A DNA stretch of 64,000 bases from Hypomesus transpacificus (Eukaryota; Chordata; Actinopteri; Osmeriformes; Osmeridae): the NCBI RefSeq assembly GCF_021917145.1, contig NC_061063.1, positions 316,715 to 380,714 on the forward strand, in the 5' to 3' direction. Under the pieces are notes generated by a model. The model had not been told where the DNA came from. It saw only the letters and a list, made by a program, of their open reading frames with translations, and made no database searches. Of the stretch, positions 8,820-43,365 are shown one piece after another (positions within the stretch are counted from its first letter, which is position 1; each line of letters opens with the position of its first letter). A program made the position numbers and the translations under genes.

Positions 8820-9008
8820 ACATTTACATTCAGTCATTTAGCAGACGCTCTTATCCAGAGCGACTTACAGTAAGTACAGGGACATTACCCCCAAGGCAAG
8901 TAAGGTGCCTTGCCCAAGGACACTGCATTATTTGGCATGCCGGGAATCGAACTGGCAACTTTCTGATGTAATAGCCCGATTCCCTAACCGCTCAACCATC
9001 TGACCCCC
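8820..9008 (-). mobile_element. tRNA-derived SINE
   Basis: Same family and same position within the relic unit as 574-763. It retains the tail AGCGTCTGCTAAATGACTG on the - strand and a tRNA-like head ending near 9008. Confidence 0.85.
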
Positions 9009-14261: not shown

Positions 14262-14581
14262 GTAACCGTGCCCCCACCCTGACGGTGCTGCCCCCCTCCA
14301 GTGAGGAACTGTCCAGTAAGAGTACAGCCACGCTGATGTGTCTGGCCAACCAGGGCTTCCCCTCAGACTGGACCCTCAGCTGGAAGGTGGACGGGAACAG
14401 CAAGAAGAGCCAGGAGGCCAGCAGGGGGCTCTGGGAGAAGGACGGCCAGTACAGCTGGAGCATCACCCTGACTCTCACTGCCCAGGAGTGGACCAGTGTG
14501 CTGGAGGTGACCTGTGAGGCCCACCAGAGCTCCCAGCCTACGGTCACTCACACCCTGAAGAGAGAGCAGTGTTCAGAGTAG
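14262..14581 (+). CDS. Immunoglobulin light-chain constant exon, cassette B
   Basis: Acceptor CCCCAG at 14261, phase 1. Same C domain as cassette A, with Asn in KVDGNSKK and Ile in YSWSITLTL. Canonical Cys/Trp/Cys and terminal KREQCSE are retained. Polyadenylation signal AATAAA 14834-14839. Served by J 13117 and 13478. Confidence 0.96.
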
Positions 14582-15180: not shown

Positions 15181-15745
15181 ACTGTTCATGGCTATAAACA
15201 GATCTAGACCACACACCAGTCAAATTCCAATCATCATTGATATTCATCTGTCATCATGACACAGCATTCAGCTTTACAAGAGAGTTTACCTTCTACCACC
15301 ATGATACCATGGGATTGTGTTAACACAGTAAGGACAAACTTATATAAAATCACTCATGTTCAATCTGATCATCATTTGACTTCAGTCATTAAAGACAATA
15401 GTTTGATATGCAGTGATACAACATGGTCCCTAATCTGTGGGACCCTGATGATAATCCTCCTTAATCCCCTGGGGTCAGGTGAGCATCTGGTGACAGTGCT
15501 GCTCTATTCTGGGAGTAGCAGAACCAGCCACCCTGAAGATGCAAATCTCAGTTTCACTCCCACAGCTCCCAATGTACAGCTGAACAGTTGAGTCTAAACT
15601 ACCCTGGACTGGGCCAGGTGTGAGGGGGGGCTGGTCTCATTACTGAGGGGGGAGAGGAGGGGGTAGAGTGAGTCATCTAACTCCTGTCTGACATGAAGGT
15701 TACACAGGAATAGAAGGAACACAGGAATAGTGGGGACTTCCTCTC
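15181..15745. promoter_or_regulatory. Candidate IgL 3' enhancer, cassette B
   Basis: Counterpart of 6100-6660: octamer ATGCAAAT 15539-15546, kappaB-like GGGGACTTCC 15732-15741, and the same E-boxes between. The left edge of the 10.4-kb duplication (15678) falls inside it, so only the kappaB end is carried into the second copy (26096-26105). Confidence 0.55.
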
Positions 15746-16106
15746 AGGTCTTCATGTCAGAGGTCAGACCAGGACCATGTGACCTGATGCAGAAAACTCT
15801 GAAGAGTTTTCGACTGGTTAACATGATGACAATATGTGGTGAGGTCTCACATGAGGTTTCAATGAGACATATGGCACAATGACAGTGGCAGAAAGGAGTT
15901 GATCATGATAGGGATTATGATCGGTAGCAATGTAGACTAGCATTATTGTGGTATTTTTTATATTTGTAATCCTTTTAAATTAGTTTCACACTTACATAAA
16001 CAGAAATTGTTTTGTTTTTCCATAAGTGGTTTCTAATCTTAACTTCATTATTTAAAATGCTTTAAGGAGTGCTTTGACATGAGGGTGGGTTAGTTAACAT
16101 GTGACC
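15746..16106. other. Spacer 3' of V5
   Basis: No gene is seen. Related sequence occurs 3' of V11 (44700-45300), with GATCATGATAGGGATTATGA-type motifs. Confidence 0.5.
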
Positions 16107-16227
16107 AGTCAGTGTTCCATGTCACTGTCTCTTCCCCCTCAGCACCTGCAGTAGGTCCCAGCTGTAGCAGTGCAGTCACTGTGCAGTCTGACTGAGGGAG
16201 GTTTTTGTACGGCTCTGTATCACTGTG

Positions 16228-16737
16228 TGAACACCCTGTCACTGCCAGGGTAGTGGAAACTCTGACAGTAGTAATCTCCTGCATCTTCAGCCAGGACTCC
16301 ACTGATGGTCAGAGTGAAGTCAGTCCCAGATCCACTACCACTGAATCTAGATGGAGTCCCAGACTGAAGTGTTGTAGCCCTGTAAATGAGGAGTTTAGGA
16401 GCTTCTCCTGGTCTCTGGAGGTACCAGGCTAGATAATTACCATTGAACACAGGACTGCTAACTCTACATCCTATAGAGACTGTATCTCCTGCAGGAACAG
16501 CTTTCACTGCAGGAGTCTGAGTCAAAGTGTACTGCCCTCTGGACTCTGGGTGTGAAGAGAGAAGATGAAAGAAGAGACATATTAGGGATACATCTGGATA
16601 CGTCAAAACATACACATTGCAGTGGTTAACAAGTGGTTAACATTAGAGGTAATACTGAAGTTGATATTTTATGACAGAACTCTGTTACCCTGTATGTAGA
16701 CAGCTAGAGTCCAGATGAAGATGGTGATCAGAGTCAT
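16228..16737 (-). CDS. Immunoglobulin light-chain V5
   Basis: Leader 16689-16737 ([16 protein letters not shown]; donor GTAAC rather than GTAAG). V exon 16228-16545, [12 protein letters not shown] start, CDR1 [18 protein letters not shown]3 [13 protein letters not shown]. Signal: heptamer 16221-16227, 12-bp spacer 16209-16220, nonamer 16200-16208. Octamer variant 16840-16847. It looks functional. Duplicated as 26592-27101. Confidence 0.92.
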
Positions 16738-16847
16738 GGTTGTTGTGGGTTCTGTTGTCATGAAGGACAGCTCTCAGTCATGAGGTGTTAAACTCACAGG
16801 ACTATAAACACTCCCAGACCACTGAAGCATGTGCTGCCTATGCAAAG

Positions 16848-17279
16848 TGTCCTCTCTGTTCAGACACACTTTCTTGGACCCACAGAGAAACTGTAGTTGA
16901 AGAGATGTGTGAACTGAGGCTTGATGCTGTGTCTCAATGATCACAGTCTCTGTGTCCCTCTAGTGGTCAGCTTTGGTACGATGACAATTATAAGGACTGA
17001 TTGCGATGTTTTTTAATTTTTTTAACTTAAAATACTTTGTCATGTCACAGTTGACCTCCTTGACTGTCTAATTTGATATTCAGAGTTAGTGACCTGTTGT
17101 TCAGTGAAAACAGCATTGAAAATATACTGCTTTGAAAACTGATGAATGTGACAGTCATTGATGTGATCTGAGTCTGAGTGAGAAATAGTCAGTAAGGATA
17201 AGTTTCATGCTAATAATTATAGACAATTATATGTATTCTCTAGATGTCAAATCAAAAGATTTTCAACAAGTCTCATCAG
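16848..17279. other. Spacer upstream of V5
   Basis: V-promoter-type sequence to about 16975, then AT-rich sequence without a gene, ending where a LINE fragment begins. Confidence 0.45.
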
Positions 17280-17815
17280 TAACAACAATGAGTCTGCCAA
17301 CTGGAGGGAGGTCAGCCGTCTAGAGTCCTGGTGTGCAGTCAACAACCTAGAGCTCAATGTCAACAAGACAGTGGAGGTGATTGTGGACTTCCGTTATAAG
17401 GTTCCAACACATCTTCCACTTGTCATCAACAACTCACTACTGTCACAGTAGTAGGGCATTTCAAGTTCCTAGGCACAACCATCACCAACACACTAAAATG
17501 GGACAATAACATCACTCCATTAGTGAAGAAAGGCCAGCAGCGCCTGTTCTTCCTCTGGCAGCTGAGAGGACTAAAGTTCAGCCCCCCATCATGGGGCAGT
17601 TCTACAGGGCTATCATTGAGAGTGTGCTTACATCCTCTCACTCTGTCTGGTATGACTCTGCCTCTGCCCGCTCTAAGGCCAGGCTCCAAAGAGTCGTACG
17701 GGCAGCAGAGCGCATCCTCGGCTGCCCTCTTCCCTCCATCAAGGACCTTCACAGCTCCAGATCTCTCAGGAAAGCAATAAAGATCACGGCAGACCCCTCA
17801 CAACAGTGGCAATTT
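17280..17815 (+). mobile_element. Non-LTR retrotransposon fragment, RT C-terminal part
   Basis: The broken reading frame gives WCAVNNLELNVNKTVEVIVD, FLGTTI, PLVKKGQQRLFFL, FYRAIIESVLTSS, VVRAAERILGCPLPSI, which are typical of the RT-distal part of fish LINEs. It lacks the endonuclease and core RT. It ends against a short repeat (17820-17927) that has replaced the V6 recombination signal. Confidence 0.8.
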
Positions 17816-17927
17816 TAGACCCTTTTTAAGGGTGCTCAAGCACCCCTAAACTTCATCTCAGCACCCCTAAAAATAATACAAAATAAATACAAAGTATTAT
17901 TGTTTATTATCATTTGTTTATTATCAT

Positions 17928-18416
17928 ACACTCCACCACTGTGGTAACTCTGACAGTAGTAATCTCCTGCATCTTCAGCCAGGACTCCACTGATGGTCAG
18001 AGTGAAGTCACTCCCAGATCCACTACCACTAAATCTAGATGGAGTCCCAGACTCAAGTGTTGTAGCGTAGTAAATGAGGAGTTTGGGAGCTTCTCCTGGT
18101 CTTTGGAGGTACCAGGCTAGATTAGTAGAGGCAGAACTGCTAACTCTACATCCTATAGAAACTGTATCTCCTGCAGGAATAGCTTTCACTGCTGAGTCAC
18201 AGTGTACTGCCCTCTGGACTCTGGGTGTAATGAGAGAAGATGAAAGAAGAGACGCAAGTGTTAATGATACATCTGGATATGACAAGACATACACATTGCA
18301 GTGGTTAACAAGTGGTTAACATTACAGGTAATACTGAAGTTGATCTTCTATGACAGAACTCTCTTACCCTGTATGTAGACAGCTAGAGTCCAGATGAAGA
18401 TGGTGATCAGAGTCAT
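17928..18416 (-). pseudogene. IgL V6 pseudogene: frameshift and no recombination signal
   Basis: Leader 18368-18416 is intact ([16 protein letters not shown]) and the octamer variant is at 18519-18526. V exon 17928-18220 has a 7-bp deletion in FR1, shifting frame before [16 protein letters not shown]. Downstream FR2-FR3 and CQSYHSGGV are otherwise well preserved. Homology stops at 17928, so heptamer, spacer and nonamer are gone, replaced by repeat sequence. It can neither encode a V domain nor rearrange. Confidence 0.9.
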
Positions 18417-18833
18417 GGTTGTTGTGGGTTCTGTTGTCATGAGGGACAGCTCTCAGTCATGAGGTGTTAAACTCACAGGACTATAAACACTCCCAGACCA
18501 CTGAAGCATGTGCTGCCTATGCAAAGTGTCCTCTCTGTTCAGACACACTTTATTGGACCTACAGAGAAACTGTAGTTGAAGAAATGTGTGAACTGAGGCT
18601 TGATGCTGTGTCTCAATAATCACAGTCTTTGTCTCCCTCTAGTGGTCAATGTTAGTATCTTCAGTCTGTGTGTGGACTCAAAGTGATGCCGCTGACTTCG
18701 GAGACTACATCTCTCTTCAAACAGACTCGGAATACATGTGATTTGCTGAGATATATTTATTATCTGTGACCTGTTGTTCAGTAAAGCCAACAGTGATGAT
18801 ATTCACGCAAAAATCAACATTGGGCTTGCTTGT

Positions 18834-19525
18834 TGGGCTTCCCATCACGACTTTTATCAGATTCAAGACCCTGGTACTGACCTTCCGAGCGGTGAACGGG
18901 ACTGCACCCGACTACATCAAGTCTATGCTCCAGCTTTACACCCCCACTCGCCACCTACGGTCTTCTTCTGACAACCGTCTGGTGGTCCCACCGCTCAAGA
19001 GTGCCCAGACCCAACACAAGCTCTTCTCCTGTCTGGCCCCCCAATGGTGGAATCAACTCCTCACCTCCATCAGAGACACGGACCCACCTTCAAGAAAAGT
19101 CTTAGACGCACTTGTTCCGGGAGTACAACGGTACTTCGGAATGATTGGCTGGACCTGATGTTAGTTTCCTCCATGATCACTAAGACTCTTATTGAGAGAC
19201 TTGTTGATGTTGTTGGTTAATTGTAACTGACATTAAATGATTGTACTTGCTGTTAAATATATTGTTGTTGCTTGCTTTTTCTATAGGTACACTCTTGCTC
19301 TTTTGAGGTTCATGCTGTTTAATTGTAACTTGTCTAACTACATGCTCTTATGGTTCTTTCCTTTGGGACTTATTTGATTTTCACAATGTATGCTTCATGT
19401 TTTGGCTACCCGCAATGTTTGGGGCTATCTCGTTGTTATGATCAGTGACCTATGCACTTTTGTAAAGCTCTATCTTGGAAGTCGCTTTGGATAAAAGCGT
19501 CTGCTGAATGTATACATGTAAATGT
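18834..19525 (+). mobile_element. L2/CR1-type LINE 3' fragment
   Basis: Encodes LPITTFIRFKTLVLTFRAVN and LFSCLAPQWWNQL, conserved near the C-terminus of L2/CR1-type LINEs, then a 3'UTR ending in the SINE-like tail TTGGATAAAAGCGTCTGCTG. Other copies: 29198-29889, 39570-40247, 53048-54120 (-). It has replaced most of the coiled-coil relic in this V unit. Confidence 0.85.
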
Positions 19526-19526
19526 A

Positions 19527-19690
19527 AAGACAGAAAAGGAGAGGCAGGAGAATGTGAGACTGGCAGTCATGAGGAGAACAGAGAGAAGAGCCAGGAGAGA
19601 CCTGGAGCTGGAGAGACAGCAGAACATTCTAGAGGAGCAGAGACCACAAGGACAGGAGGATGGAGAAACAAGACACAAAGTCACAGAGGA
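19527..19690 (+). pseudogene. 3' tail of the E/R-rich coiled-coil relic
   Basis: Open for KTEKERQENVRLAVMRRTER and LELERQQNILEEQRPQGQED. It corresponds to the last part of the longer relics at 36400-36553 and 40253-40447. No start codon, promoter or upstream coding sequence remains here. Confidence 0.6.
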
Positions 19691-20061
19691 AGGTTGATGA
19701 CGGCAGTGATGATGTTCTCTTAAGTCCTGTTAAAAACATAACAGTTACTGATCGACACTGAGTCTGAATGAGTTATTGTGTCAATAGGGACTCCTTTGAG
19801 AACAGCTAAATAATGATTATTGGTGGACAGAATTTCAACATAAACACATGTACATGTTTACATGTTTTAAGGAGTGCTTTGACCTGAGAGTGGGTTAGTT
19901 AACATATGAGCATCACTGATATATTCATCTCAGTGTAACAAAGGCCAGTCAGTGTTCCATGTCTCTTCCCCCTCAGCACCTGCAGTAGGTCCCAGCTGTA
20001 GCAGTGCAGTCACTGTGCAGTCTGACTGAGGGAGGTTTTTGTACGGCTCTGTATCACTGTG

Positions 20062-20564
20062 TGAACACTCCACCACTGTGGTAACTCTGACAGTAGTAAT
20101 CTCCTGCATCTTCAGCCAGGACTCCACTGATGGTCAGAGTGAAGTCACTCCCAGATCCACTACCACTGAATCGAGATGGAATCCCAGACTGAAGTGTTGT
20201 AGCGTAGTAAATGAGGAGTTTAGGAGCTTCTCCTGGTCTCTGGAGGTACCAGGCTAGATAATTACTACTGTACACAGGACTGCTAACTCTACATCCTATA
20301 GAGACTGTATCTCCTGCAAGAACAGCTTTCACTGCAGGAGTCTGAGTCAAAGTGTACTGCCCTCTGGACTCTGGGTGTGAAGAGAGAAGATGAAAGAAGA
20401 GACAAATATTAAGGATACATCTGGATATGTCAAAACATACACATTGCAGTGGTTAACAAGTGGTTAACATTAGAGGTAATACTGAAGAGGATCATGTATG
20501 ACAGAACTCCCTTACCCTGTATGTAGACAGCTAGAGTCCAGATGAAGATGGTGATCAGAGTCAT
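20062..20564 (-). CDS. Immunoglobulin light-chain V7
   Basis: Leader 20516-20564, V exon 20062-20370. CDR1 [17 protein letters not shown]2 [23 protein letters not shown]3 [10 protein letters not shown]. Signal: heptamer 20055-20061, 12-bp spacer 20043-20054, nonamer 20034-20042. Octamer variant 20667-20674. It looks functional. Its body is nearly the same as V8. Confidence 0.92.
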
Positions 20565-21309
20565 GGTTGTTGTGGGTTCTGTTGTCATGAAGGACAGCTC
20601 TCAGTCCTGAGGTGTTAAACTCACAGGACTATAAACACTCCCAGACCACTGAAGCATGTGCTGCCTATGCAAAGTTTCCTCTCTGTTCAGACACACTTTC
20701 TTGGACCCACAAAGAAACTGTCGTTGAACAGATGTGTGAACTGAGGTTTGATGCTGTGTCTCAATGATCACAGTTTTTGTGTCCCTCTAGTGGTCAGTGT
20801 CAGTATCTCAGTCTGTGAGTGGACTTAAAGTGATGCCGCACGGAATACATGTGACTTACTGAGATATATTTATTATCAGTGACTTGTTGTTCAGTAAAGC
20901 CAACAGTGATGATATTCACACAAAAAGCAACGGTCTTGTTGTGCTCTAGCATAGTTTCTAGATTCTCTGCAGTGTAAAGGCAAAGTTGTGTCTTCTATGT
21001 CCGAAACCTGTTTGAATTTGGATTCATTTGTGTTACAGTAATGTCAAAATGTTCATCTTTTGGATGTTAAGGAGGCTGCATGCAGCAGTCTTATTTACTG
21101 CACAGTAGCAGCTGTGTCGTGCCACCATCTCTTTTCGGGGGCTCTGTTAACAGAAGCACATGCTATTTATGTAACTTCACTCAGTTTTTTCCTGGGAATC
21201 CTGAACCGAGTGAACACTGATGTTCTTCTTTGCTCAGCTTGTGAGCTACGTTTTGTGCGCAGATCTCGAGGCCCATCTCCCCTTGCTAACGAGCTAACAG
21301 AGACACACA

Positions 21310-22364
21310 GGTTAATTGGTGAGAGACGGAGAGCTGATGAAAGAATCAATGCAGAGTCACGGCGCCAAGCAGGAAAACAGAAAGATGTTGGAAGGGAAGA
21401 AACGGAGAGACGGAGGAAAGGGCGAGTTAGAAAGACAAAGAGAGCATCAGACAGAGAGAGAGAGGGAAAGGAGAGAAGGACAGCTGAGGCAAAGACAGAC
21501 TGGGAGACAAAAGGAGAGACGAGAGCCTGTGGACACGGACAGGGAGGACCTGCACAGACAACTTGAAAGGGAGAATGACAGACGGAGAGATCTGGAAAGA
21601 CTACGAGCACAGGAGCTCCAGGAGGAGGAGGAAAGACGTAAACAAATAGAAAGAGAGAAAGAGAGGATGCAAGAGAGAAAGAGGATCTAAGAGGGAACTT
21701 GAAAGACAGACAAATATAGACAGTGATGCCAAATGGGATGGAGGGCGCAAGTGAAAAAGAAGCACTGACAAGTGAAGTTGAAACATCTGAAGTGGATAAC
21801 AGACAGAGAGAGATGAAAAATCTGCAAGAACAGGAGCGACAAGAGAAGGAGAGGGAGAGAGCAAAAGGAATATAGAGAGAAGAGAAAAAGACCAAAAGAG
21901 GACCTTCAGAGGGTGATTGAAACACTTGAAAGAGAACCGAGGTGGGAACTTGAATAAAGGGAGGGACAGAAAGAAAGCAGAAGCAGGAAGACAGCAGACG
22001 GATGAGGCAGAGAGAACGGGAGAGTGAGGAAGAGAGACATCAAGAAGGCCTGGAGAAGGAATCTGAAAGACTTCAAGAAAACCAGAGAGACATTAAAAGA
22101 CTGCAGGAACATGAAGTGGACCAATCCAGACAAACAGAGTCCCTGAGTCCCTGCAGAGAGAACTTGGTCTTGTACAGCGCTCAGAGGCTGCTGGACAGAG
22201 GCTTGTTGAGCAAGTGATGGATGATCCAAAGCATGCAGACGAAATGGACAGATCAGAGCAGGAGAGAGTCATGGAGGAGAGACAGGGAGGAAATACAAAT
22301 GGGAGACAAAAGGAGGAAATACAAATGGGAGACAAAAGGAGGAAATACAAATGGGAGACAAAAG
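21310..22364 (+). pseudogene. E/R-rich coiled-coil relic 1
   Basis: Runs of Glu/Arg/Lys/Gln codons are open in pieces on the + strand: about 21316-21690 (LERENDRRRDLERLRAQELQ), 22002-22217 (RESEEERHQEGLEKESERLQ) and 22214-22364 ([20 protein letters not shown]). Stops and frame changes separate the pieces, so it is not a working gene. The family was not recognised; the composition is trichohyalin-like. It ends in three 25-bp repeats that run directly into V8. Confidence 0.6.
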
Positions 22365-22371
22365 GAGTGTG

Positions 22372-22883
22372 TGAACACCCAGACACTGTTAGGGTAGTGT
22401 AAACTCTGGCAGTAGTAATCTCCAGCATCTTCAGCCAGGACTCCACTGATGGTCAGAGTGAAGTCACTTCCAGATCCACTACCACTGAATCGAGATGGAA
22501 TCCCAGACTGAAGTGTTGTAGCGTAGTAAATGAGGAGTTTAGGAGCTTCTCCTGGTCTCTGGAGGTACCAGGCTAGATAATTACTACTGTACACAGGACT
22601 GCTAACTCTACATCCTATAGAGACTGTATGTCCTGCAAGAACAGCTTTCACTGCAGGAGTCTGAGTCAAAGTGTACTGCCCTCTGGACTCTGGGTGTGAA
22701 GAGAGAAGATGAAAGAAGAGACAAATATTAAGGATACATCTGGATATGTCAAAACATACACATTGCAGTGGTTAACAAGTGGTTAACATTAGAGGTAATA
22801 CTGAAGAGGATCATGTATGACAGAACTCCCTTACCCTGTATGTAGACAGCTAGAGTCCAGATGAAGATGGTGATCAGAGTCAT
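22372..22883 (-). CDS. IgL V8: intact V exon without a recombination signal
   Basis: Leader 22835-22883 and V exon 22372-22689 are intact ([40 protein letters not shown]). Octamer variant 22986-22993. At the 3' end only the CACA half of a heptamer remains (22365-22371 reads GAGTGTG on the + strand). No nonamer follows, because the coiled-coil relic is joined there. The frame continues unbroken through ~37 more, strongly hydrophobic codons to a stop at 22253, antisense to that relic. It cannot recombine normally. A germline V-plus-tail product is possible but unproven. Confidence 0.85.
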
Positions 22884-23969
22884 GGTTGTTGTGGGTTCTG
22901 TTGTCATGAAGGACAGCTCTCAGTCCTGAGGTGTTAAACTCACAGGACTATAAACACTCCCAGACCACTGAAGCATGTGCTGCCTATGCAAAGTGTCCTC
23001 TCTGTTCAGACACACTTTCTTGGACCCACAAAGAAACTGTCGTTGAACAGATGTGTGAACTGAGGTTTGATGCTGTGTCTCAATGATCACAGTCTCTGTG
23101 TCCCTCTAGTGGTCAGTGTCAGTATCTCAGTCTGTGAGTGGACTGAAAGTGATGCCGCTCGGAATACATGTGACTTACTGAGATATATTTATTATCAGTG
23201 ACCTGTTGTTCAGTAAAGCCAACAGTGATGATATTCACACAAAAAGCAACGGTCTTGTTGTGCTCTAGCATAGTTTTTAGATTCTCTGTAGTGTAAAGGC
23301 AAAGTTGTGTCATCTATATCCGAAACCTGTTTGAATTTGGATTCATTTGTGTTACAGTAATGTCAAAATGTTCATCTTTTGGATGTTAAGGAGGCTGCAT
23401 GCAGCAGTCTTATTTACTGCACAGTAGCAGCTGTGTCGTGCCACCATCTCTTTTTGGGGGCTCTGTTAACAGAAGCACATGATATCAAGGTAACTTCACT
23501 CATAGTTTTTTCCTGGGAATCCTGAACCGAGTGAACACTGATGTTCTTCTATGCTCAGCTTGTGAGCTACGTTTTGTGCGCAGGTCTTGAGGCCCATCTC
23601 CCCTTTGTTAAGGAGCTAACAGAGACCCACAGGTGAACTGGTGACAGACGGACAGCTGATGAAAGAATCAATGCAGAGTCACGGCGCCAAGCAGGAAAAC
23701 AGAGAGATGTTGGAAAGGGAAGAAACGGAGACACGGTGGAAAGGGCGAGTTAGAAAGACAAAGAGAGCATCAGACAGAGAGAGAGAGGGAAAGGAGAGAA
23801 GGACAGCTGAGGCAAAGACAGACTGGGAGACAAAAGGAGAGACGAGAGCCTATGGACACGGACAGGGGGGACCTGCAGAGACAACTTGAATGAGGGAAGG
23901 ATAGACGGAGAGATCTGGAAAGACGACGAGCACAGGAGCTCCAGGAGCAGAAGGAGAGACGTAAACAAT

Positions 23970-24970
23970 TAGTGCAACGGGCTATCCTCAGTGCCGCACG
24001 CCCATACACACACAAACACATACACGCAGGCACCCTATTATGCTTGGTTCACTCCAGTCCACTAGGGACAGCGAGGTGTCATCGGATGCATTCTGCAAGG
24101 CAGGGAAGGATAAAAAAAGGAATTGGGGAGCTTTTGTTTGAACTCAATGGCTGTGTCTACCACCGCGCACTTTACAAAGTACACTGCAATACAGTGCACT
24201 GCAAAACAGTGCACTTACATATCCAGTGCACTCCGTCACTGATAAGTGCTGTCTCTAATGGAACACTTACGTTAAACACTTGGTAGAAGTGACGGACCCA
24301 AATCTGCTCGCCAAAATGAACGCGCTTCTCCACTCAAGTGGAAAAAGCTGCCGAAAGGGCTCCTCCTTTTCTGCTACGTAGCCAAGATGGCGCCCGTTTA
24401 GGGCGAGTAGTGTCCATCGTTGTACACTGTTTTTTTGGACCAGTTGCAGTGCACCATCCGGGTACTTTCAGTGCACTGAATTCTGCAGGTTTTTTGAGTG
24501 AAGCGCCCTAAGCACTGAAAGTCAGTGCTCGAAGTGCACAAGTGCGCGGAGGTAGACACAGCTCATGCCTTGACACCAGTGTTTGTTCCTTCACTTTTTC
24601 AAGGTAATATAACCTTTTCTTGTGGGTTTTAAACTGCTGCAAATGAGTGTGGATGATCTAAAAACAAGCATGCTGGTATTGGGGTGTTACGTTGGTAAAA
24701 GATGTCTGTGTGTGTGTTTGATGATGTTTTGTATATTGTGATTTCACATGGTTTTAGGCCACGGACGGTGGTCGCCTGTGTTGACTAATTATGCATTTGG
24801 CAGTTAGTATGAAATGATTGTTGTAGCCTGTCTTTTATTGCAGCCTGTTTTTACTGATTGTTAATAAAAGTGAACTCCATGCCTCGACACCTGTGTTTGT
24901 TCCTTCACTTTTCAGGCATAAGGAACCTGTTTGTGCTGGCCCAAGTTCCCCTAGGCTTGAGGCCGGTAAC
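23970..24970. mobile_element. ~1-kb composite insertion in relic 2
   Basis: The relic frame is continuous across this insertion in relic 1 (about 21631-21640), so it is secondary. It includes a MITE (24149-24563) and two ~38-bp direct repeats (CACCAGTGTTTGTTCCTTCA near 24578, CACCTGTGTTTGTTCCTTCA near 24886). The end structure was not resolved. Confidence 0.55.
24149..24563. mobile_element. MITE with ~20-bp terminal inverted repeats
   Basis: The left end GGCTGTGTCTACCACCGCGC and right end (reverse complement AGCTGTGTCTACCTCCGCGC) are inverted repeats. No coding capacity. Multiple CAGTGCAC motifs occur inside. A target duplication was not identified, so the superfamily is open. Confidence 0.7.
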
Positions 24971-26591
24971 AAAATAGAAAGAGAGAGAGGATGCAAGACA
25001 GAAAGAGGATCTAAGAGGGAACTTGAAAGACAGACAAATATAGACAGTGATGCCAAATGGGATGGAGGGTGCAAGAGAAAAAGAAGCACTGACAAGGGAA
25101 GTTGATACACCTGAAGTGGATTACAGACAGAGAGAGATGGAAAGTCTGCAAGAACAGGAGCGACAAGAGAAGGAGAGGGAGGGAGCCAAAGGAATATAGA
25201 GAGAAGACAAAAAGACCAAAAGAGGACCTTCAGAGGGTGATTGAAAGACTTGAAAGAGAACCGAGGTGGGAACTTGAATAAAGGGAGGGACAGAAAGAAA
25301 GCAGAAGCAGGAAGACAGCAGACGGATGAGGCAGAGAGAACGGGAGAGTGAGGAAGAGAGACATCAAGAAGGCCTGCAGAAGGAATCTGAAAGACTTCAA
25401 GAAAACCAGAGAGACATTAAAAGACTGCAGGAACATGAAGTGGACCAATCCAGACAAACAGAGTCCCTGAGTCCCTGCAGAGAGAACTTGGTCTTGTACA
25501 GCGCTCAGAGGCTGCTGAACAGAGGCTTGTTGAGCAAGTGATGGATGATCCAAAGCATGCAGACGAAATGGACTGATCAGAGCAGGAGAGAGTCATGGAG
25601 GAGAGAGAGGGAGGAAATACAAATGGGAGACAAAAGGAGGAAATACAAATGGAGGAGAGAAGGCAAAGAGAAGAGACCAGGGATGGAGGTGAGATGGAGA
25701 CAAGAAGGAGCTTGAGAAACAAGGCACAGAAGAGACAAAACAACCCAAGAAGAAAGGAGGAAAGGAGAAAGAGAGGGAGGAGGAGAAGGAGGAGAGAGTA
25801 AGAGAGATGGAGAAAACCCAGGTAGCAAAGTTGTATGACATGAAAGTGAAAGCTGCAGACAACTATTGTCTCCAAAAAGCATTCAATTCACAAATAGATT
25901 TATTTCAAGAACGGGAGAGAATTGTGAGAGAGGATAAGAAAATGAAACAGTAGAAGAAGAGAAAGGAGGAGGAAGACAGACAACAGCAGGCTTGTGAACA
26001 ACCATCATCTGCAAGGACAGAGAAGGAGAGGCAGGAGAATGTAACTCCTGTCTGACATGAAGGTTACACAGGAATAGAAGGAACACAGGAATAGTGGGGA
26101 CTTCCTCTCAGGTCTTCATGTCAGAGGTCAGACCAGGACCATGTGACCTGATGCAGAAAACTCTGAAGAGTTTTCGACTGGTTAACATGATGACAATATG
26201 TGGTGAGGTCTCACATGAGGTTTCAATGAGACATATGGCACAATGACAGTGGCAGAAAGGAGTTGATCATGATAGGGATTATGATCGGTAGCAATGTAGA
26301 CTAGCATTATTGTGGTATTTTTTATATTTGTAATCCTTTTAAATTAGTTTCACACTTACATAAACAGAAATTGTTTTGTTTTTCCATAAGTGGTTTCTAA
26401 TCTTAACTTCATTATTTAAAATGCTTTAAGGAGTGCTTTGACATGAGGGTGGGTTAGTTAACATGTGACCAGTCAGTGTTCCATGTCACTGTCTCTTCCC
26501 CCTCAGCACCTGCAGTAGGTCCCAGCTGTAGCAGTGCAGTCACTGTGCAGTCTGACTGAGGGAGGTTTTTGTACGGCTCTGTATCACTGTG

Positions 26592-27101
26592 TGAACACCC
26601 TGTCACTGCCAGGGTAGTGGAAACTCTGACAGTAGTAATCTCCTGCATCTTCAGCCAGGACTCCACTGATGGTCAGAGTGAAGTCAGTCCCAGATCCACT
26701 ACCACTGAATCTAGATGGAGTCCCAGACTGAAGTGTTGTAGCCCTGTAAATGAGGAGTTTAGGAGCTTCTCCTGGTCTCTGGAGGTACCAGGCTAGATAA
26801 TTACCATTGAACACAGGACTGCTAACTCTACATCCTATAGAGACTGTATCTCCTGCAGGAACAGCTTTCACTGCAGGAGTCTGAGTCAAAGTGTACTGCC
26901 CTCTGGACTCTGGGTGTGAAGAGAGAAGATGAAAGAAGAGACATATTAGGGATACATCTGGATACGTCAAAACATACACATTGCAGTGGTTAACAAGTGG
27001 TTAACATTAGAGGTAATACTGAAGTTGATATTTTATGACAGAACTCTGTTACCCTGTATGTAGACAGCTAGAGTCCAGATGAAGATGGTGATCAGAGTCA
27101 T
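26592..27101 (-). CDS. IgL V5 copy (V5b)
   Basis: Same translation as V5 (16228-16737). Leader 27053-27101, V exon 26592-26909. Signal: heptamer 26585-26591, nonamer 26564-26572, 12-bp spacer. Octamer variant 27204-27211. Intact. Confidence 0.92.
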
Positions 27102-27643
27102 GGTTGTTGTGGGTTCTGTTGTCATGAAGGACAGCTCTCAGTCATGAGGTGTTAAACTCACAGGACTATAAACACTCCCAGACCACTGAAGCATGTGCTG
27201 CCTATGCAAAGTGTCCTCTCTGTTCAGACACACTTTCTTGGACCCACAGAGAAACTGTAGTTGAAGAGATGTGTGAACTGAGGCTTGATGCTGTGTCTCA
27301 ATGATCACAGTCTCTGTGTCCCTCTAGTGGTCAGCTTTGGTACGATGACAATTATAAGGACTGATTGCGATGTTTTTTAATTTTTTTAACTTAAAATACT
27401 TTGTCATGTCACAGTTGACCTCCTTGACTGTCTAATTTGATATTCAGAGTTAGTGACCTGTTGTTCAGTGAAAACAGCATTGAAAATATACTGCTTTGAA
27501 AACTGATGAATGTGACAGTCATTGATGTGATCTGAGTCTGAGTGAGAAATAGTCAGTAAGGATAAGTTTCATGCTAATAATTATAGACAATTATATGTAT
27601 TCTCTAGATGTCAAATCAAAAGATTTTCAACAAGTCTCATCAG

Positions 27644-28179
27644 TAACAACAATGAGTCTGCCAACTGGAGGGAGGTCAGCCGTCTAGAGTCCTGGTGTGC
27701 AGTCAACAACCTAGAGCTCAATGTCAACAAGACAGTGGAGGTGATTGTGGACTTCCGTTATAAGGTTCCAACACATCTTCCACTTGTCATCAACAACTCA
27801 CTACTGTCACAGTAGTAGGGCATTTCAAGTTCCTAGGCACAACCATCACCAACACACTAAAATGGGACAATAACATCACTCCATTAGTGAAGAAAGGCCA
27901 GCAGCGCCTGTTCTTCCTCTGGCAGCTGAGAGGACTAAAGTTCAGCCCCCCATCATGGGGCAGTTCTACAGGGCTATCATTGAGAGTGTGCTTACATCCT
28001 CTCACTCTGTCTGGTATGACTCTGCCTCTGCCCGCTCTAAGGCCAGGCTCCAAAGAGTCGTACGGGCAGCAGAGCGCATCCTCGGCTGCCCTCTTCCCTC
28101 CATCAAGGACCTTCACAGCTCCAGATCTCTCAGGAAAGCAATAAAGATCACGGCAGACCCCTCACAACAGTGGCAATTT
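27644..28179 (+). mobile_element. Non-LTR retrotransposon fragment (copy of 17280-17815)
   Basis: Identical in translation to the first copy, carried by the tandem duplication and not a separate insertion. Confidence 0.8.
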
Positions 28180-28291
28180 TAGACCCTTTTTAAGGGTGCT
28201 CAAGCACCCCTAAACTTCATCTCAGCACCCCTAAAAATAATACAAAATAAATACAAAGTATTATTGTTTATTATCATTTGTTTATTATCAT

Positions 28292-28780
28292 ACACTCCAC
28301 CACTGTGGTAACTCTGACAGTAGTAATCTCCTGCATCTTCAGCCAGGACTCCACTGATGGTCAGAGTGAAGTCACTCCCAGATCCACTACCACTAAATCT
28401 AGATGGAGTCCCAGACTCAAGTGTTGTAGCGTAGTAAATGAGGAGTTTGGGAGCTTCTCCTGGTCTTTGGAGGTACCAGGCTAGATTAGTAGAGGCAGAA
28501 CTGCTAACTCTACATCCTATAGAAACTGTATCTCCTGCAGGAATAGCTTTCACTGCTGAGTCACAGTGTACTGCCCTCTGGACTCTGGGTGTAATGAGAG
28601 AAGATGAAAGAAGAGACGCAAGTGTTAATGATACATCTGGATATGACAAGACATACACATTGCAGTGGTTAACAAGTGGTTAACATTACAGGTAATACTG
28701 AAGTTGATCTTCTATGACAGAACTCTCTTACCCTGTATGTAGACAGCTAGAGTCCAGATGAAGATGGTGATCAGAGTCAT
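28292..28780 (-). pseudogene. IgL V6 pseudogene copy (V6b)
   Basis: Same FR1 frameshift and same loss of the recombination signal as V6. Leader 28732-28780, V remnant 28292-28584. Confidence 0.9.
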
Positions 28781-29197
28781 GGTTGTTGTGGGTTCTGTTG
28801 TCATGAGGGACAGCTCTCAGTCATGAGGTGTTAAACTCACAGGACTATAAACACTCCCAGACCACTGAAGCATGTGCTGCCTATGCAAAGTGTCCTCTCT
28901 GTTCAGACACACTTTATTGGACCTACAGAGAAACTGTAGTTGAAGAAATGTGTGAACTGAGGCTTGATGCTGTGTCTCAATAATCACAGTCTTTGTCTCC
29001 CTCTAGTGGTCAATGTTAGTATCTTCAGTCTGTGTGTGGACTCAAAGTGATGCCGCTGACTTCGGAGACTACATCTCTCTTCAAACAGACTCGGAATACA
29101 TGTGATTTGCTGAGATATATTTATTATCTGTGACCTGTTGTTCAGTAAAGCCAACAGTGATGATATTCACGCAAAAATCAACATTGGGCTTGCTTGT

Positions 29198-29889
29198 TGG
29201 GCTTCCCATCACGACTTTTATCAGATTCAAGACCCTGGTACTGACCTTCCGAGCGGTGAACGGGACTGCACCCGACTACATCAAGTCTATGCTCCAGCTT
29301 TACACCCCCACTCGCCACCTACGGTCTTCTTCTGACAACCGTCTGGTGGTCCCACCGCTCAAGAGTGCCCAGACCCAACACAAGCTCTTCTCCTGTCTGG
29401 CCCCCCAATGGTGGAATCAACTCCTCACCTCCATCAGAGACACGGACCCACCTTCAAGAAAAGTCTTAGACGCACTTGTTCCGGGAGTACAACGGTACTT
29501 CGGAATGATTGGCTGGACCTGATGTTAGTTTCCTCCATGATCACTAAGACTCTTATTGAGAGACTTGTTGATGTTGTTGGTTAATTGTAACTGACATTAA
29601 ATGATTGTACTTGCTGTTAAATATATTGTTGTTGCTTGCTTTTTCTATAGGTACACTCTTGCTCTTTTGAGGTTCATGCTGTTTAATTGTAACTTGTCTA
29701 ACTACATGCTCTTATGGTTCTTTCCTTTGGGACTTATTTGATTTTCACAATGTATGCTTCATGTTTTGGCTACCCGCAATGTTTGGGGCTATCTCGTTGT
29801 TATGATCAGTGACCTATGCACTTTTGTAAAGCTCTATCTTGGAAGTCGCTTTGGATAAAAGCGTCTGCTGAATGTATACATGTAAATGT
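29198..29889 (+). mobile_element. L2/CR1-type LINE 3' fragment (copy)
   Basis: Second-copy counterpart of 18834-19525, with the same translation and tail. Confidence 0.85.
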
Positions 29890-29890
29890 A

Positions 29891-30054
29891 AAGACAGAAA
29901 AGGAGAGGCAGGAGAATGTGAGACTGGCAGTCATGAGGAGAACAGAGAGAAGAGCCAGGAGAGACCTGGAGCTGGAGAGACAGCAGAACATTCTAGAGGA
30001 GCAGAGACCACAAGGACAGGAGGATGGAGAAACAAGACACAAAGTCACAGAGGA
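29891..30054 (+). pseudogene. 3' tail of the coiled-coil relic (copy)
   Basis: Counterpart of 19527-19690. Confidence 0.6.
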
Positions 30055-30425
30055 AGGTTGATGACGGCAGTGATGATGTTCTCTTAAGTCCTGTTAAAAA
30101 CATAACAGTTACTGATCGACACTGAGTCTGAATGAGTTATTGTGTCAATAGGGACTCCTTTGAGAACAGCTAAATAATGATTATTGGTGGACAGAATTTC
30201 AACATAAACACATGTACATGTTTACATGTTTTAAGGAGTGCTTTGACCTGAGAGTGGGTTAGTTAACATATGAGCATCACTGATATATTCATCTCAGTGT
30301 AACAAAGGCCAGTCAGTGTTCCATGTCTCTTCCCCCTCAGCACCTGCAGTAGGTCCCAGCTGTAGCAGTGCAGTCACTGTGCAGTCTGACTGAGGGAGGT
30401 TTTTGTACGGCTCTGTATCACTGTG

Positions 30426-30928
30426 TGAACACTCCACCACTGTGGTAACTCTGACAGTAGTAATCTCCTGCATCTTCAGCCAGGACTCCACTGATGGTCA
30501 GAGTGAAGTCACTCCCAGATCCACTACCACTGAATCGAGATGGAATCCCAGACTGAAGTGTTGTAGCGTAGTAAATGAGGAGTTTAGGAGCTTCTCCTGG
30601 TCTCTGGAGGTACCAGGCTAGATAATTACTACTGTACACAGGACTGCTAACTCTACATCCTATAGAGACTGTATCTCCTGCAAGAACAGCTTTCACTGCA
30701 GGAGTCTGAGTCAAAGTGTACTGCCCTCTGGACTCTGGGTGTGAAGAGAGAAGATGAAAGAAGAGACAAATATTAAGGATACATCTGGATATGTCAAAAC
30801 ATACACATTGCAGTGGTTAACAAGTGGTTAACATTAGAGGTAATACTGAAGAGGATCATGTATGACAGAACTCCCTTACCCTGTATGTAGACAGCTAGAG
30901 TCCAGATGAAGATGGTGATCAGAGTCAT
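30426..30928 (-). CDS. IgL V7 copy (V7b)
   Basis: Same translation as V7. Leader 30880-30928, V exon 30426-30734. Signal: heptamer 30419-30425, nonamer 30398-30406, 12-bp spacer. Intact. Confidence 0.92.
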
Positions 30929-31673
30929 GGTTGTTGTGGGTTCTGTTGTCATGAAGGACAGCTCTCAGTCCTGAGGTGTTAAACTCACAGGACTATAAAC
31001 ACTCCCAGACCACTGAAGCATGTGCTGCCTATGCAAAGTTTCCTCTCTGTTCAGACACACTTTCTTGGACCCACAAAGAAACTGTCGTTGAACAGATGTG
31101 TGAACTGAGGTTTGATGCTGTGTCTCAATGATCACAGTTTTTGTGTCCCTCTAGTGGTCAGTGTCAGTATCTCAGTCTGTGAGTGGACTTAAAGTGATGC
31201 CGCACGGAATACATGTGACTTACTGAGATATATTTATTATCAGTGACTTGTTGTTCAGTAAAGCCAACAGTGATGATATTCACACAAAAAGCAACGGTCT
31301 TGTTGTGCTCTAGCATAGTTTCTAGATTCTCTGCAGTGTAAAGGCAAAGTTGTGTCTTCTATGTCCGAAACCTGTTTGAATTTGGATTCATTTGTGTTAC
31401 AGTAATGTCAAAATGTTCATCTTTTGGATGTTAAGGAGGCTGCATGCAGCAGTCTTATTTACTGCACAGTAGCAGCTGTGTCGTGCCACCATCTCTTTTC
31501 GGGGGCTCTGTTAACAGAAGCACATGCTATTTATGTAACTTCACTCAGTTTTTTCCTGGGAATCCTGAACCGAGTGAACACTGATGTTCTTCTTTGCTCA
31601 GCTTGTGAGCTACGTTTTGTGCGCAGATCTCGAGGCCCATCTCCCCTTGCTAACGAGCTAACAGAGACACACA

Positions 31674-32728
31674 GGTTAATTGGTGAGAGACGGAGAGCTG
31701 ATGAAAGAATCAATGCAGAGTCACGGCGCCAAGCAGGAAAACAGAAAGATGTTGGAAGGGAAGAAACGGAGAGACGGAGGAAAGGGCGAGTTAGAAAGAC
31801 AAAGAGAGCATCAGACAGAGAGAGAGAGGGAAAGGAGAGAAGGACAGCTGAGGCAAAGACAGACTGGGAGACAAAAGGAGAGACGAGAGCCTGTGGACAC
31901 GGACAGGGAGGACCTGCACAGACAACTTGAAAGGGAGAATGACAGACGGAGAGATCTGGAAAGACTACGAGCACAGGAGCTCCAGGAGGAGGAGGAAAGA
32001 CGTAAACAAATAGAAAGAGAGAAAGAGAGGATGCAAGAGAGAAAGAGGATCTAAGAGGGAACTTGAAAGACAGACAAATATAGACAGTGATGCCAAATGG
32101 GATGGAGGGCGCAAGTGAAAAAGAAGCACTGACAAGTGAAGTTGAAACATCTGAAGTGGATAACAGACAGAGAGAGATGAAAAATCTGCAAGAACAGGAG
32201 CGACAAGAGAAGGAGAGGGAGAGAGCAAAAGGAATATAGAGAGAAGAGAAAAAGACCAAAAGAGGACCTTCAGAGGGTGATTGAAACACTTGAAAGAGAA
32301 CCGAGGTGGGAACTTGAATAAAGGGAGGGACAGAAAGAAAGCAGAAGCAGGAAGACAGCAGACGGATGAGGCAGAGAGAACGGGAGAGTGAGGAAGAGAG
32401 ACATCAAGAAGGCCTGGAGAAGGAATCTGAAAGACTTCAAGAAAACCAGAGAGACATTAAAAGACTGCAGGAACATGAAGTGGACCAATCCAGACAAACA
32501 GAGTCCCTGAGTCCCTGCAGAGAGAACTTGGTCTTGTACAGCGCTCAGAGGCTGCTGGACAGAGGCTTGTTGAGCAAGTGATGGATGATCCAAAGCATGC
32601 AGACGAAATGGACAGATCAGAGCAGGAGAGAGTCATGGAGGAGAGACAGGGAGGAAATACAAATGGGAGACAAAAGGAGGAAATACAAATGGGAGACAAA
32701 AGGAGGAAATACAAATGGGAGACAAAAG
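31674..32728 (+). pseudogene. E/R-rich coiled-coil relic 1 (copy)
   Basis: Counterpart of 21310-22364, with the same broken frames. Confidence 0.6.
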
Positions 32729-32735
32729 GAGTGTG

Positions 32736-33247
32736 TGAACACCCAGACACTGTTAGGGTAGTGTAAACTCTGGCAGTAGTAATCTCCAGCATCTTCAGCC
32801 AGGACTCCACTGATGGTCAGAGTGAAGTCACTTCCAGATCCACTACCACTGAATCGAGATGGAATCCCAGACTGAAGTGTTGTAGCGTAGTAAATGAGGA
32901 GTTTAGGAGCTTCTCCTGGTCTCTGGAGGTACCAGGCTAGATAATTACTACTGTACACAGGACTGCTAACTCTACATCCTATAGAGACTGTATGTCCTGC
33001 AAGAACAGCTTTCACTGCAGGAGTCTGAGTCAAAGTGTACTGCCCTCTGGACTCTGGGTGTGAAGAGAGAAGATGAAAGAAGAGACAAATATTAAGGATA
33101 CATCTGGATATGTCAAAACATACACATTGCAGTGGTTAACAAGTGGTTAACATTAGAGGTAATACTGAAGAGGATCATGTATGACAGAACTCCCTTACCC
33201 TGTATGTAGACAGCTAGAGTCCAGATGAAGATGGTGATCAGAGTCAT
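32736..33247 (-). CDS. IgL V8 copy (V8b), no recombination signal
   Basis: Same V-plus-tail reading frame as V8. Leader 33199-33247, V exon 32736-33053, frame open to 32617. The nonamer is lost in the same way. Confidence 0.85.
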
Positions 33248-33993
33248 GGTTGTTGTGGGTTCTGTTGTCATGAAGGACAGCTCTCAGTCCTGAGGTGTTA
33301 AACTCACAGGACTATAAACACTCCCAGACCACTGAAGCATGTGCTGCCTATGCAAAGTGTCCTCTCTGTTCAGACACACTTTCTTGGACCCACAAAGAAA
33401 CTGTCGTTGAACAGATGTGTGAACTGAGGTTTGATGCTGTGTCTCAATGATCACAGTCTCTGTGTCCCTCTAGTGGTCAGTGTCAGTATCTCAGTCTGTG
33501 AGTGGACTGAAAGTGATGCCGCTCGGAATACATGTGACTTACTGAGATATATTTATTATCAGTGACCTGTTGTTCAGTAAAGCCAACAGTGATGATATTC
33601 ACACAAAAAGCAGCGGTCTTGTTGTGCTCTAGCATAGTTTTTAGATTCTCTGTAGTGTAAAGGCAAAGTTGTGTCATCTATATCCGAAACCTGTTTGAAT
33701 TTGGATTCATTTGTGTTACAGTAATGTCAAAATGTTCATCTTTTGGATGTTAAGGAGGCTGCATGCAGCAGTCTTATTTACTGCACAGTAGCAGCTGTGT
33801 CGTGCCACCATCTCTTTTTGGGGGCTCTGTTAACAGAAGCACATGATATCAAGGTAACTTCACTCATAGTTTTTTCCTGGGAATCCTGAACCGAGTGAAC
33901 ACTGATGTTCTTCTATGCTCAGCTTGTGAGCTACGTTTTGTGCGCAGGTCTTGAGGCCCATCTCCCCTTTGTTAAGGAGCTAACAGAGACCCA

Positions 33994-36553
33994 CAGGTGA
34001 ACTGGTGACAGACGGACAGCTGATGAAAGAATCAATGCAGAGTCACGGCGCCAAGCAGGAAAACAGAGAGATGTTGGAAAGGGAAGAAACGGAGACACGG
34101 TGGAAAGGGCGAGTTAGAAAGACAAAGAGAGCATCAGACAGAGAGAGAGAGGGAAAGGAGAGAAGGACAGCTGAGGCAAAGACAGACTGGGAGACAAAAG
34201 GAGAGACGAGAGCCTATGGACACGGACAGGGGGGACCTGCAGAGACAACTTGAATGAGGGAAGGATAGACGGAGAGATCTGGAAAGACGACGAGCACAGG
34301 AGCTCCAGGAGCAGAAGGAGAGACGTAAACAATTAGTGCAACGGGCTATCCTCAGTGCCGCACGCCCATACACACACAAACACATACACGCAGGCACCCT
34401 ATTATGCTTGGTTCACTCCAGTCCACTAGGGACAGCGAGGTGTCATCGGATGCATTCTGCAAGGCAGGGAAGGATAAAAAAAGGAATTGGGGAGCTTTTG
34501 TTTGAACTCAATGGCTGTGTCTACCACCGCGCACTTTACAAAGTACACTGCAATACAGTGCACTGCAAAACAGTGCACTTACATATCCAGTGCACTCCGT
34601 CACTGATAAGTGCTGTCTCTAATGGAACACTTACGTTAAACACTTGGTAGAAGTGACGGACCCAAATCTGCTCGCCAAAATGAACGCGCTTCTCCACTCA
34701 AGTGGAAAAAGCTGCCGAAAGGGCTCCTCCTTTTCTGCTACGTAGCCAAGATGGCGCCCGTTTAGGGCGAGTAGTGTCCATCGTTGTACACTGTTTTTTT
34801 GGACCAGTTGCAGTGCACCATCCGGGTACTTTCAGTGCACTGAATTCTGCAGGTTTTTTGAGTGAAGCGCCCTAAGCACTGAAAGTCAGTGCTCGAAGTG
34901 CACAAGTGCGCGGAGGTAGACACAGCTCATGCCTTGACACCAGTGTTTGTTCCTTCACTTTTTCAAGGTAATATAACCTTTTCTTGTGGGTTTTAAACTG
35001 CTGCAAATGAGTGTGGATGATCTAAAAACAAGCATGCTGGTATTGGGGTGTTACGTTGGTAAAAGATGTCTGTGTGTGTGTTTGATGATGTTTTGTATAT
35101 TGTGATTTCACATGGTTTTAGGCCACGGACGGTGGTCGCCTGTGTTGACTAATTATGCATTTGGCAGTTAGTATGAAATGATTGTTGTAGCCTGTCTTTT
35201 ATTGCAGCCTGTTTTTACTGATTGTTAATAAAAGTGAACTCCATGCCTCGACACCTGTGTTTGTTCCTTCACTTTTCAGGCATAAGGAACCTGTTTGTGC
35301 TGGCCCAAGTTCCCCTAGGCTTGAGGCCGGTAACAAAATAGAAAGAGAGAGAGGATGCAAGACAGAAAGAGGATCTAAGAGGGAACTTGAAAGACAGACA
35401 AATATAGACAGTGATGCCAAATGGGATGGAGGGTGCAAGAGAAAAAGAAGCACTGACAAGGGAAGTTGATACACCTGAAGTGGATTACAGACAGAGAGAG
35501 ATGGAAAGTCTGCAAGAACAGGAGCGACAAGAGAAGGAGAGGGAGGGAGCCAAAGGAATATAGAGAGAAGACAAAAAGACCAAAAGAGGACCTTCAGAGG
35601 GTGATTGAAAGACTTGAAAGAGAACCGAGGTGGGAACTTGAATAAAGGGAGGGACAGAAAGAAAGCAGAAGCAGGAAGACAGCAGACGGATGAGGCAGAG
35701 AGAACGGGAGAGTGAGGAAGAGAGACATCAAGAAGGCCTGCAGAAGGAATCTGAAAGACTTCAAGAAAACCAGAGAGACATTAAAAGACTGCAGGAACAT
35801 GAAGTGGACCAATCCAGACAAACAGAGTCCCTGAGTCCCTGCAGAGAGAACTTGGTCTTGTACAGCGCTCAGAGGCTGCTGAACAGAGGCTTGTTGAGCA
35901 AGTGATGGATGATCCAAAGCATGCAGACGAAATGGACTGATCAGAGCAGGAGAGAGTCATGGAGGAGAGAGAGGGAGGAAATACAAATGGGAGACAAAAG
36001 GAGGAAATACAAATGGAGGAGAGAAGGCAAAGAGAAGAGACCAGGGATGGAGGTGAGATGGAGACAAGAAGGAGCTTGAGAAACAAGGCACAGAAGAGAC
36101 AAAACAACCCAAGAAGAAAGGAGGAAAGGAGAAAGAGAGGGAGGAGGAGAAGGAGGAGAGAGTAAGAGAGATGGAGAAAACCCAGGTAGCAAAGTTGTAT
36201 GACATGAAAGTGAAAGCTGCAGACAACTATTGTCTCCAAAAAGCATTCAATTCACAAATAGATTTATTTCAAGAACGGGAGAGAATTGTGAGAGAGGATA
36301 AGAAAATGAAACAGTAGAAGAAGAGAAAGGAGGAGGAAGACAGACAACAGCAGGCTTGTGAACAACCATCATCTGCAAGGACAGAGAAGGAGAGGCAGGA
36401 GAATGTGAGACTGGCAGTCAGGAGGAGAACAGAGAGAAGAGCCAGGAGAGACCTGGAGCTGGAGAGACAGCAGAACATTCTAGAGGAGCAGAGACCACAA
36501 GGACAGGAGGAGGATGGAGAAACAAGACACAAAGTCACAGAGGAAGGTTGATG
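33994..36553 (+). pseudogene. E/R-rich coiled-coil relic 2 (copy, with its true 3' end)
   Basis: Counterpart of 23630-26041 with the same ~1-kb insertion at 34334-35334 (MITE 34513-34927). Past 36405 it continues into LELERQQNILEEQRPQGQEE and ends near 36553, showing what the first copy lost. Confidence 0.6.
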
Positions 36554-42302: not shown

Positions 42303-42340
42303 GTGGACTTTTGGTGGAGGCACCAGACTGGATGTTGGAA
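42303..42340 (+). CDS. IgL J1 segment, cassette C
   Basis: WTFGGGTRLDVG, donor GTAAGT. Signal: nonamer 42264-42272, 23-bp spacer 42273-42295, heptamer 42296-42302, consensus. Confidence 0.95.
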
Positions 42341-42655
42341 GTAAGTATCTGAACAAGATTGAATCTTCTCTGTATTTTACTAAATATGTCTTGACATCAA
42401 TACTGAGTGTCACTTTTCTGAATATAGTTATTTTTTACAACCATTTAGAAAATTCTGAAAAACTAGATTTCAGGCTTAAAATGAAAACACATGAAGAAAT
42501 CTAAAGCTTTTTCACGATTCTGAAAATGAGCTAAAAGCGGTCATTGACAAATAATTCTTGATGCTTTAACAAAAAGTCTAAATAAGCTGTGGTGAATCAA
42601 GCAGCAATAGGAGGGAGGTTTTTGTACGGGCAGTAATAGAGGTTGAATCACTGTG

Positions 42656-42693
42656 GTACACTTTTGGTGGAGGTACCAGACTAGATGTTGGAA
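42656..42693 (+). CDS. IgL J2 segment, cassette C
   Basis: YTFGGGTRLDVG, donor GTAAGT. Signal: nonamer 42617-42625, 23-bp spacer 42626-42648, heptamer 42649-42655. Confidence 0.95.
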
Positions 42694-43365
42694 GTAAGTA
42701 ACAATCTTTTCTGAAAGGGATTTCACTTTTTGCATGCTTGATTCTTCATAGAAATTTTTAGGTTCAAGATCATTCAAAGATCGTATGTAAAAAAAAAAGT
42801 ATATTTTCTGGTGAATACTGTAAAATTACAAATTTAAACTGTTTAATCCTAGTTTGTGTTTTTACTTCATCTTAATGCTGTTTGTTCATGGGTGGATGCA
42901 CTGATCGTCTGATGAGATTTGACATGTTGTTTTGAGTTATTTATGCACCTGCATGATCATATGTTAATATCTATAATGTTAGTTAATGAAAAGTATTGAG
43001 ATTTTTTTATTTGGCCAGACTTATTCTGATACTATCGCTCTGGATAAGAGCGTCTGCTAAATGACTAAATGTACTAACTGCTATATTTACACCGACTGTG
43101 ACCATTTAAGTAATGATCATTTCCCACGAAAATACTTTAATTACGTTGCCTTGTACAGTATGACTATCTATTGACTCATGTTTATGTATTAACTTGATTT
43201 CATTTCTTTGTTCACACTATGATAATTTATTGATATTGTTTAATTAATCCAGAAGTAATTGAGTTAGTCTTTGGTTGAAATAGCAGAAGTCCATCTCTGT
43301 CTTCAAAAACAATCTCTTAAAATGCTGAGTGGGTTTGTAATCTGACGTATTGTGTTTGTCTCCAG
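42694..43365 (+). other. J-C intron, cassette C
   Basis: Contains the SINE-tail insertion at 43033-43075 shared with cassette B. Otherwise close to 4709-5338. Confidence 0.8.

Follow-up and report, generated by a model that had tools for sequence, protein, structure and literature searches.

The window analysed here, a 64,000-nucleotide stretch of the Hypomesus transpacificus genome (C4:316715-380714), contains a 10,364-bp tandem duplication whose two copies differ at one base. Judging from the sequence, we consider it probable that the duplication is real, arose very recently in the germline and lies within a teleost-type (kappa-like) immunoglobulin light-chain (IgL) locus, and we infer that the event behind it was a biological one. 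The window appears to be part of a kappa-type IgL cluster in which variable (V) segments lie opposite to joining (J) segments and constant (C) exons. We read a region of 264 kb, consisting of the window and 100 kb on each side, and flank positions are given in window numbering as negative coordinates or coordinates above 64000. Genome-wide probe matches in the 437 Mb assembly (376 contigs) were scored on the best candidates only.

Extent and identity of the two copies

Base-by-base comparison resolved two direct copies of 10,364 bp that adjoin each other, with no insertions or deletions between them and a sole difference at 23249 (A) versus 33613 (G).

15678..26041: copy 1 of the tandem duplication (offset windows, BLASTN, base-by-base comparison)
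26042..36405: copy 2, with the derived G at 33613 (base-by-base comparison, paralog alignment)
26041..26042: duplication junction with a 1-bp (T) overlap (base-by-base comparison, junction probe)

Apart from that position, 15678-26042 is the same as 26042-36406 letter for letter, and the bases just beyond the edges (15677 and 26043) differ, which leaves a single T common to both edges. At an offset of 10,364, 200-bp windows placed every 200 bp from 15801 to 25801 were all 100% identical except one (99.5%), and the BLASTN alignment of the pair was 99.98% identical over 10,368 bp. Adjacent direct copies with sharp ends are what a recent germline tandem duplication leaves behind. The sequence-only reading of this DNA had claimed a tandem duplication of this length with almost no divergence, very recent and with a homology-poor junction of 1-bp overlap at 26041/26042; its coordinates proved exact to the base, and one mismatch and one shared base agree with the rest.

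Self-comparison of the 264 kb returned 3,871 repeat pairs, only four of which combined an identity of 99% or more with a length above 150 bp, namely this duplication, inverted pairs of 959 bp and 720 bp, and a local pair of 245 bp. The count of pairs of at least 1 kb leaves aside those that begin in the satellite array occupying -93000..-89000. Among the 49 pairs of that size, the best after the 10,364-bp pair reached 97.3% over 1,082 bp. Since no other pair of at least 1 kb exceeds this value, the duplication is an age outlier among many older ones.

Edges, junction and the case for a germline event

If the duplication is a derived event, then related sequences elsewhere should run unbroken through its outer edges and none should cross its junction. 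The left edge is continuous in three other clusters on C4, with 31 of 31 bases identical to the left of the break. Genome-wide, the left-edge probe gave 10 matches. Seven of them continue across the break (three on C4, one on C15 and three on C12, those on C4 and C12 having been read as sequence), and the rest are the probe's own site, the junction half and one partial piece. Four places in the 264 kb run through the right edge (-15716, 19523, 29887 and 40243), of which 19523 and 29887 are one place in the two copies. No junction-spanning sequence was found in the 264 kb besides the junction itself, and a 200-bp junction probe gave 14 matches genome-wide, only one of them full-length. Among the best candidates scored, the junction and left-edge probes matched on C4, C12 and C15 only, with none on small contigs. 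Since the paralogs are unbroken across the outer edges and none crosses the junction, the outer edges are ancestral, the right one as judged within the 264 kb, and the junction is derived. At the mismatch site, copy 1 and eight other aligned places carry A, and copy 2 alone carries G. These eight places count as six independent ones, as two pairs each consist of both copies of one place, and the substitution is accordingly derived in copy 2.

The principal alternative, raised already in the sequence-only reading, is an assembly artefact, in which the assembler would have placed head to tail either both alleles or unmerged pieces of a single one. Near-identity, tandem layout and a homology-free junction are what unmerged contig ends would be expected to give, and false assembly duplications likewise consist of near-identical adjacent copies. 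In the parts of PMC9516828 drawn on here, such duplications are usually separated by gaps, some being connected by wrong gap filling, and are marked by half depth, gaps and discordant reads. Here no gap separates the copies: a single stretch of 100 N occurs in the 264 kb, at -43949, 59.5 kb to the left of copy 1, with none at the junction, within 59 kb, or onward up to +164000. The copies also differ too little for alleles. At an allelic divergence of at least 0.1%, one mismatch or fewer in 10,364 bp has a probability of at most 4e-4, with about ten differences expected at 0.1%. The absence of N within 59 kb and a divergence too low for misplaced alleles therefore weigh against an artefact. 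Unmerged pieces of one allele (homotype errors) are linked to error-rich reads (PMC9516828, in part), yet the copies show no insertions or deletions. Nor does the rest of the 264 kb, leaving out the satellite array, hold another near-identical pair of at least 1 kb. In 40 kb of the IgL region on C12, the 25 longest pairs reached 95.8% identity at best. On this balance we regard an artefact as unlikely.

Several points nevertheless weigh against a real duplication. Save for the one substitution, a homotype mis-assembly closed with no Ns would give the same picture, and that substitution could itself be a consensus error. If heterozygosity is low here, low divergence argues less against allelic misplacement. 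The repeat unit is about as long as a long read, a size at which assemblers can fail, and the continuity of the right edge rests on the 264 kb read. Any count of V genes in blocks of this kind should first be backed by reads.

An older duplication kept identical by gene conversion would also give near-identical copies, and the locus does hold a conversion-like tract. Compared with a place at about -15.7 kb (C4 about 301,000), 52 kb away, 36192-36530 forms a clean run of about 340 bp flanked by differences at 36191 and 36531. The run sits in a 2.5-kb alignment of 96% identity, and uniform shuffles almost never gave one as long (0.002, a post hoc test). It is likely a product of gene conversion that by chance lies across the duplication's right edge. 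Yet this tract covers a few hundred bases and other pairs of at least 1 kb, the satellite array aside, stand at 97.3% or less, whereas the two copies match right up to each end and differ only once over 10 kb. We therefore consider maintenance by conversion very improbable, and a young germline duplication remains our preferred explanation.

Copied V segments and the light-chain locus

The block contains four V segments, all on the minus strand, and all four V exons of copy 1 pass the V-set family cut-off. V segments, J segments and C exons of the surroundings are as follows, where RSS denotes recombination signal sequence.

16223..16737, minus strand: V1, intact, with leader ATG at 16737, V exon and 12-spacer RSS (heptamer from 16227); copied at 26587-27101
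17932..18416, minus strand: V2, pseudogene; copied at 28296-28780
20057..20564, minus strand: V3, intact, with leader, V exon and 12-spacer RSS (heptamer from 20061); copied at 30421-30928
22367..22883, minus strand: V4, leader and exon intact, RSS lost; copied at 32731-33247
14282..14530, plus strand: C1-set constant exon belonging to the left-hand cluster, not duplicated (family match, coordinates converted)
42303..42700, plus strand: J pair of the right-hand cluster, not duplicated; both segments carry a 23-spacer RSS, with heptamer ends at 42302 and 42655
43386..43634, plus strand: C1-set constant exon belonging to the right-hand cluster, not duplicated (family match, coordinates converted)

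V1 and V3 each have an intact spliced reading frame and a full 12-spacer RSS (score 16/16). V2 is shifted in frame by a 7-bp deletion and has unrelated sequence in place of an RSS, and V4 diverges from the other V segments after the heptamer CACA, where it enters a 26-bp minisatellite. The number of V segments with a full RSS in the 264 kb thus rises from 17 to 19 through the duplication, as an RSS count in which frames outside the block were only partly tested. An earlier claim that four V segments were doubled holds for the copying as such; only V1 and V3 bring both frame and RSS. The single mismatch between the copies lies in no V exon. It is located 366 bp upstream of the ATG of the V4 leader, and of the stop-to-stop frames with 30 codons or more, three include it (40, 50 and 64 codons). 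This agrees with the statement in the sequence-only reading that every compared translation but one was identical.

The minisatellite beside V4 comprises 3.2 perfect units at 22286-22367 and starts inside the heptamer. Close to V2 lies a frame with a match to ALKBH8_N, a domain name frequent in fragments of long interspersed nuclear elements (LINEs). Between the V segments, at 21000-22300 and 23500-26000 and in their copies, there are long open frames of repetitive, charged, coiled-coil-like sequence; the four such frames that were scanned had no match in Pfam (one at E 0.01 and three at E 1, two of these on the opposite strand).

The assignment of the locus follows from its signals and orientation. 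A V query matched the 264 kb 24 times, each time on the minus strand, one match near 47392 having an internal stop. A search pattern of nine heptamer spellings with a nonamer of at least 7/9 gave 32 RSS rows, of which 19 had a 12-bp spacer and 8 a 23-bp spacer (nonamer 9/9), and 5 were set aside (score 7-8). Five V matches lacked such an RSS (ends at 17932, 22367, 28296, 32731 and 40777). All six J segments read, with the motif (W/Y/S)TFGGGTRLDVG, and all four C1-set exons (5359, 14282 and 43386 in the window, -9071 outside) are on the plus strand. The 264 kb thus shows 12-spacer signals on V and 23-spacer signals on J, as in teleost kappa-type (L1/L3) IgL clusters; the C exons were assigned by C1-set family match alone, which places the class as kappa-type with L1 and L3 left unsplit. 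This arrangement, in which V segments face the other way from J and C and can rearrange by inversion, is already known in teleosts from the portions of PMC5241823 and PMC3014032 consulted. The torafugu and zebrafish L1/L3 clusters described there share the V12-23J signals, the mostly opposite orientation of V to J and C, the presence of several clusters on several chromosomes, and V pseudogenes. The present locus is set apart by a single young duplication of a V block rather than by its layout.

Since the block has the C exon at 14282 on its left and the J pair at 42303/42656 on its right, only V segments were copied. J, C and the motifs of a candidate enhancer were not doubled, although the left breakpoint cuts the element that carries these motifs.

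15478..15762: element 3' of the C exon, candidate enhancer (octamer at 15539, E-boxes at 15577 and 15615, AP-1-like site at 15669)

The duplicated part of this element is 15678 onward only. The element recurs beside other IgL clusters (6403, 44427 and -7875, and on C12 and C15), about 0.8-1 kb 3' of IgL C exons, and an octamer, an AP-1-like site and at least one E-box were present in all seven copies read (four on C4, three on C12). This conserved element is a candidate 3' enhancer. The junction stretch 26000-26241 contains no octamer, E-box or AP-1-like site. It had been proposed that the junction lies at the edge of a candidate enhancer; the left break indeed cuts the element, but copy 2 holds its motif-free far edge, so the candidate enhancer was not doubled.

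Joining, age and expected effect on V usage

We propose that a 10,364-bp stretch with four V segments was copied head to tail, its right end being joined to its left end with homology of at most 1 bp, and that this joining would have occurred through end joining between sister chromatids or through replicative template switching. The edges share 1 bp, which argues against crossing over between long repeats and fits either route. Among random breakpoint pairs, 56% had an overlap of 0 bp, 27% of 1 bp and 44% of at least 1 bp; the 1-bp overlap is thus at chance level and does not discriminate between the two. The proposal of end joining in the sequence-only reading was therefore right about a homology-poor junction and too narrow about the pathway, as the same overlap is also compatible with template switching. 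Nonrecurrent copy-number variants (CNVs), which share a junction with almost no homology, can have blunt or microhomology junctions and arise also without Xrcc4, according to the part of PMC3447954 used here; one junction, as in the present case, cannot tell the pathway.

Paralogous repeats and RSSs are abundant at the locus, and unequal crossing over between repeats (non-allelic homologous recombination) or RAG-mediated joining at cryptic RSSs would be natural suspects. Only 1 bp is common to both edges, and the long homology that unequal crossing over uses is missing, so we rejected it. RAG cutting at the breaks was likewise rejected. The best CAC-anchored RSS-like scores within 60 bp were 8/16 at the left edge, 6/16 at the junction and 7/16 at the right edge, against 16/16 for V1 and V3. 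We give either route hardly any credence. End joining or template switching thus remains the mechanism suggested by the sequence. Purine-rich tracts at the breaks turned out to be ordinary, with 7-60% of positions at least as skewed depending on the size of the interval compared. A G-rich run resembling a G-quadruplex lies 15-31 bp to the left of the left break and is a weak lead.

The portion of PMC9995274 consulted gives a mean mutation rate in fish of 5.97e-9; at 6e-9 per generation, one difference between the copies corresponds to an age of about 8,000 generations (95% 200-45,000). At 2e-9 per generation the estimate becomes about 24,000 generations, and up to 134,000; should the single difference prove to be an error, the age would be lower yet. 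No long microsatellite that could serve as a second clock was present among the 18 tandem-repeat rows of copy 1. Neutral variants this young are usually still segregating. Since the age is at most about 4.5x10^4 generations at the fish mean rate, a segregating copy-number variant is expected, and this is most likely what the duplication is. We put at about even the chances of the fuller proposition, that a V-only copy-number allele still segregates in the fish population and that, next to a J-C cluster of inversion type, it doubles two V segments possessing both frame and RSS together with two broken V segments, but not J, C or the candidate enhancer.

The gain would amount to two V segments with frame and RSS (V1 and V3) identical to their originals, with no new V sequence, J, C or enhancer, and V usage would be predicted to shift by dosage. 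In humans, light-chain V copy number raises usage additively, as stated in the part of PMC12753720 consulted. Human light-chain CNVs such as IGLV5-39 resemble the present case in that germline structural variants alter V copy number, and differ in that the human loci come with population and usage data, whereas here we have the sequence of one assembly (PMC12753720, in part). A segregating V-only allele, if true, would provide a natural experiment on whether the usage of V segments tracks their dosage at a locus that rearranges by inversion. Immunoglobulin loci grow through repeated local duplication, the other large copies here being older and blurred, and a duplication is an ordinary kind of event for such loci. 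If real, this one would be a first step of locus growth with both edges and the junction still legible, showing homology-free joining, V segments copied alone, and broken V segments copied together with good ones.

Two further sets of repeats were noted. The inverted pairs of 959 and 720 bp (99.5-99.9%) lie between the two flanks of the window on C4 (-31217 to -28131 and 99930 to 101599) and are perhaps young transposons. UnaL2-type LINE 3' elements occur on the minus strand at 8828-8881 and 52726-52779.

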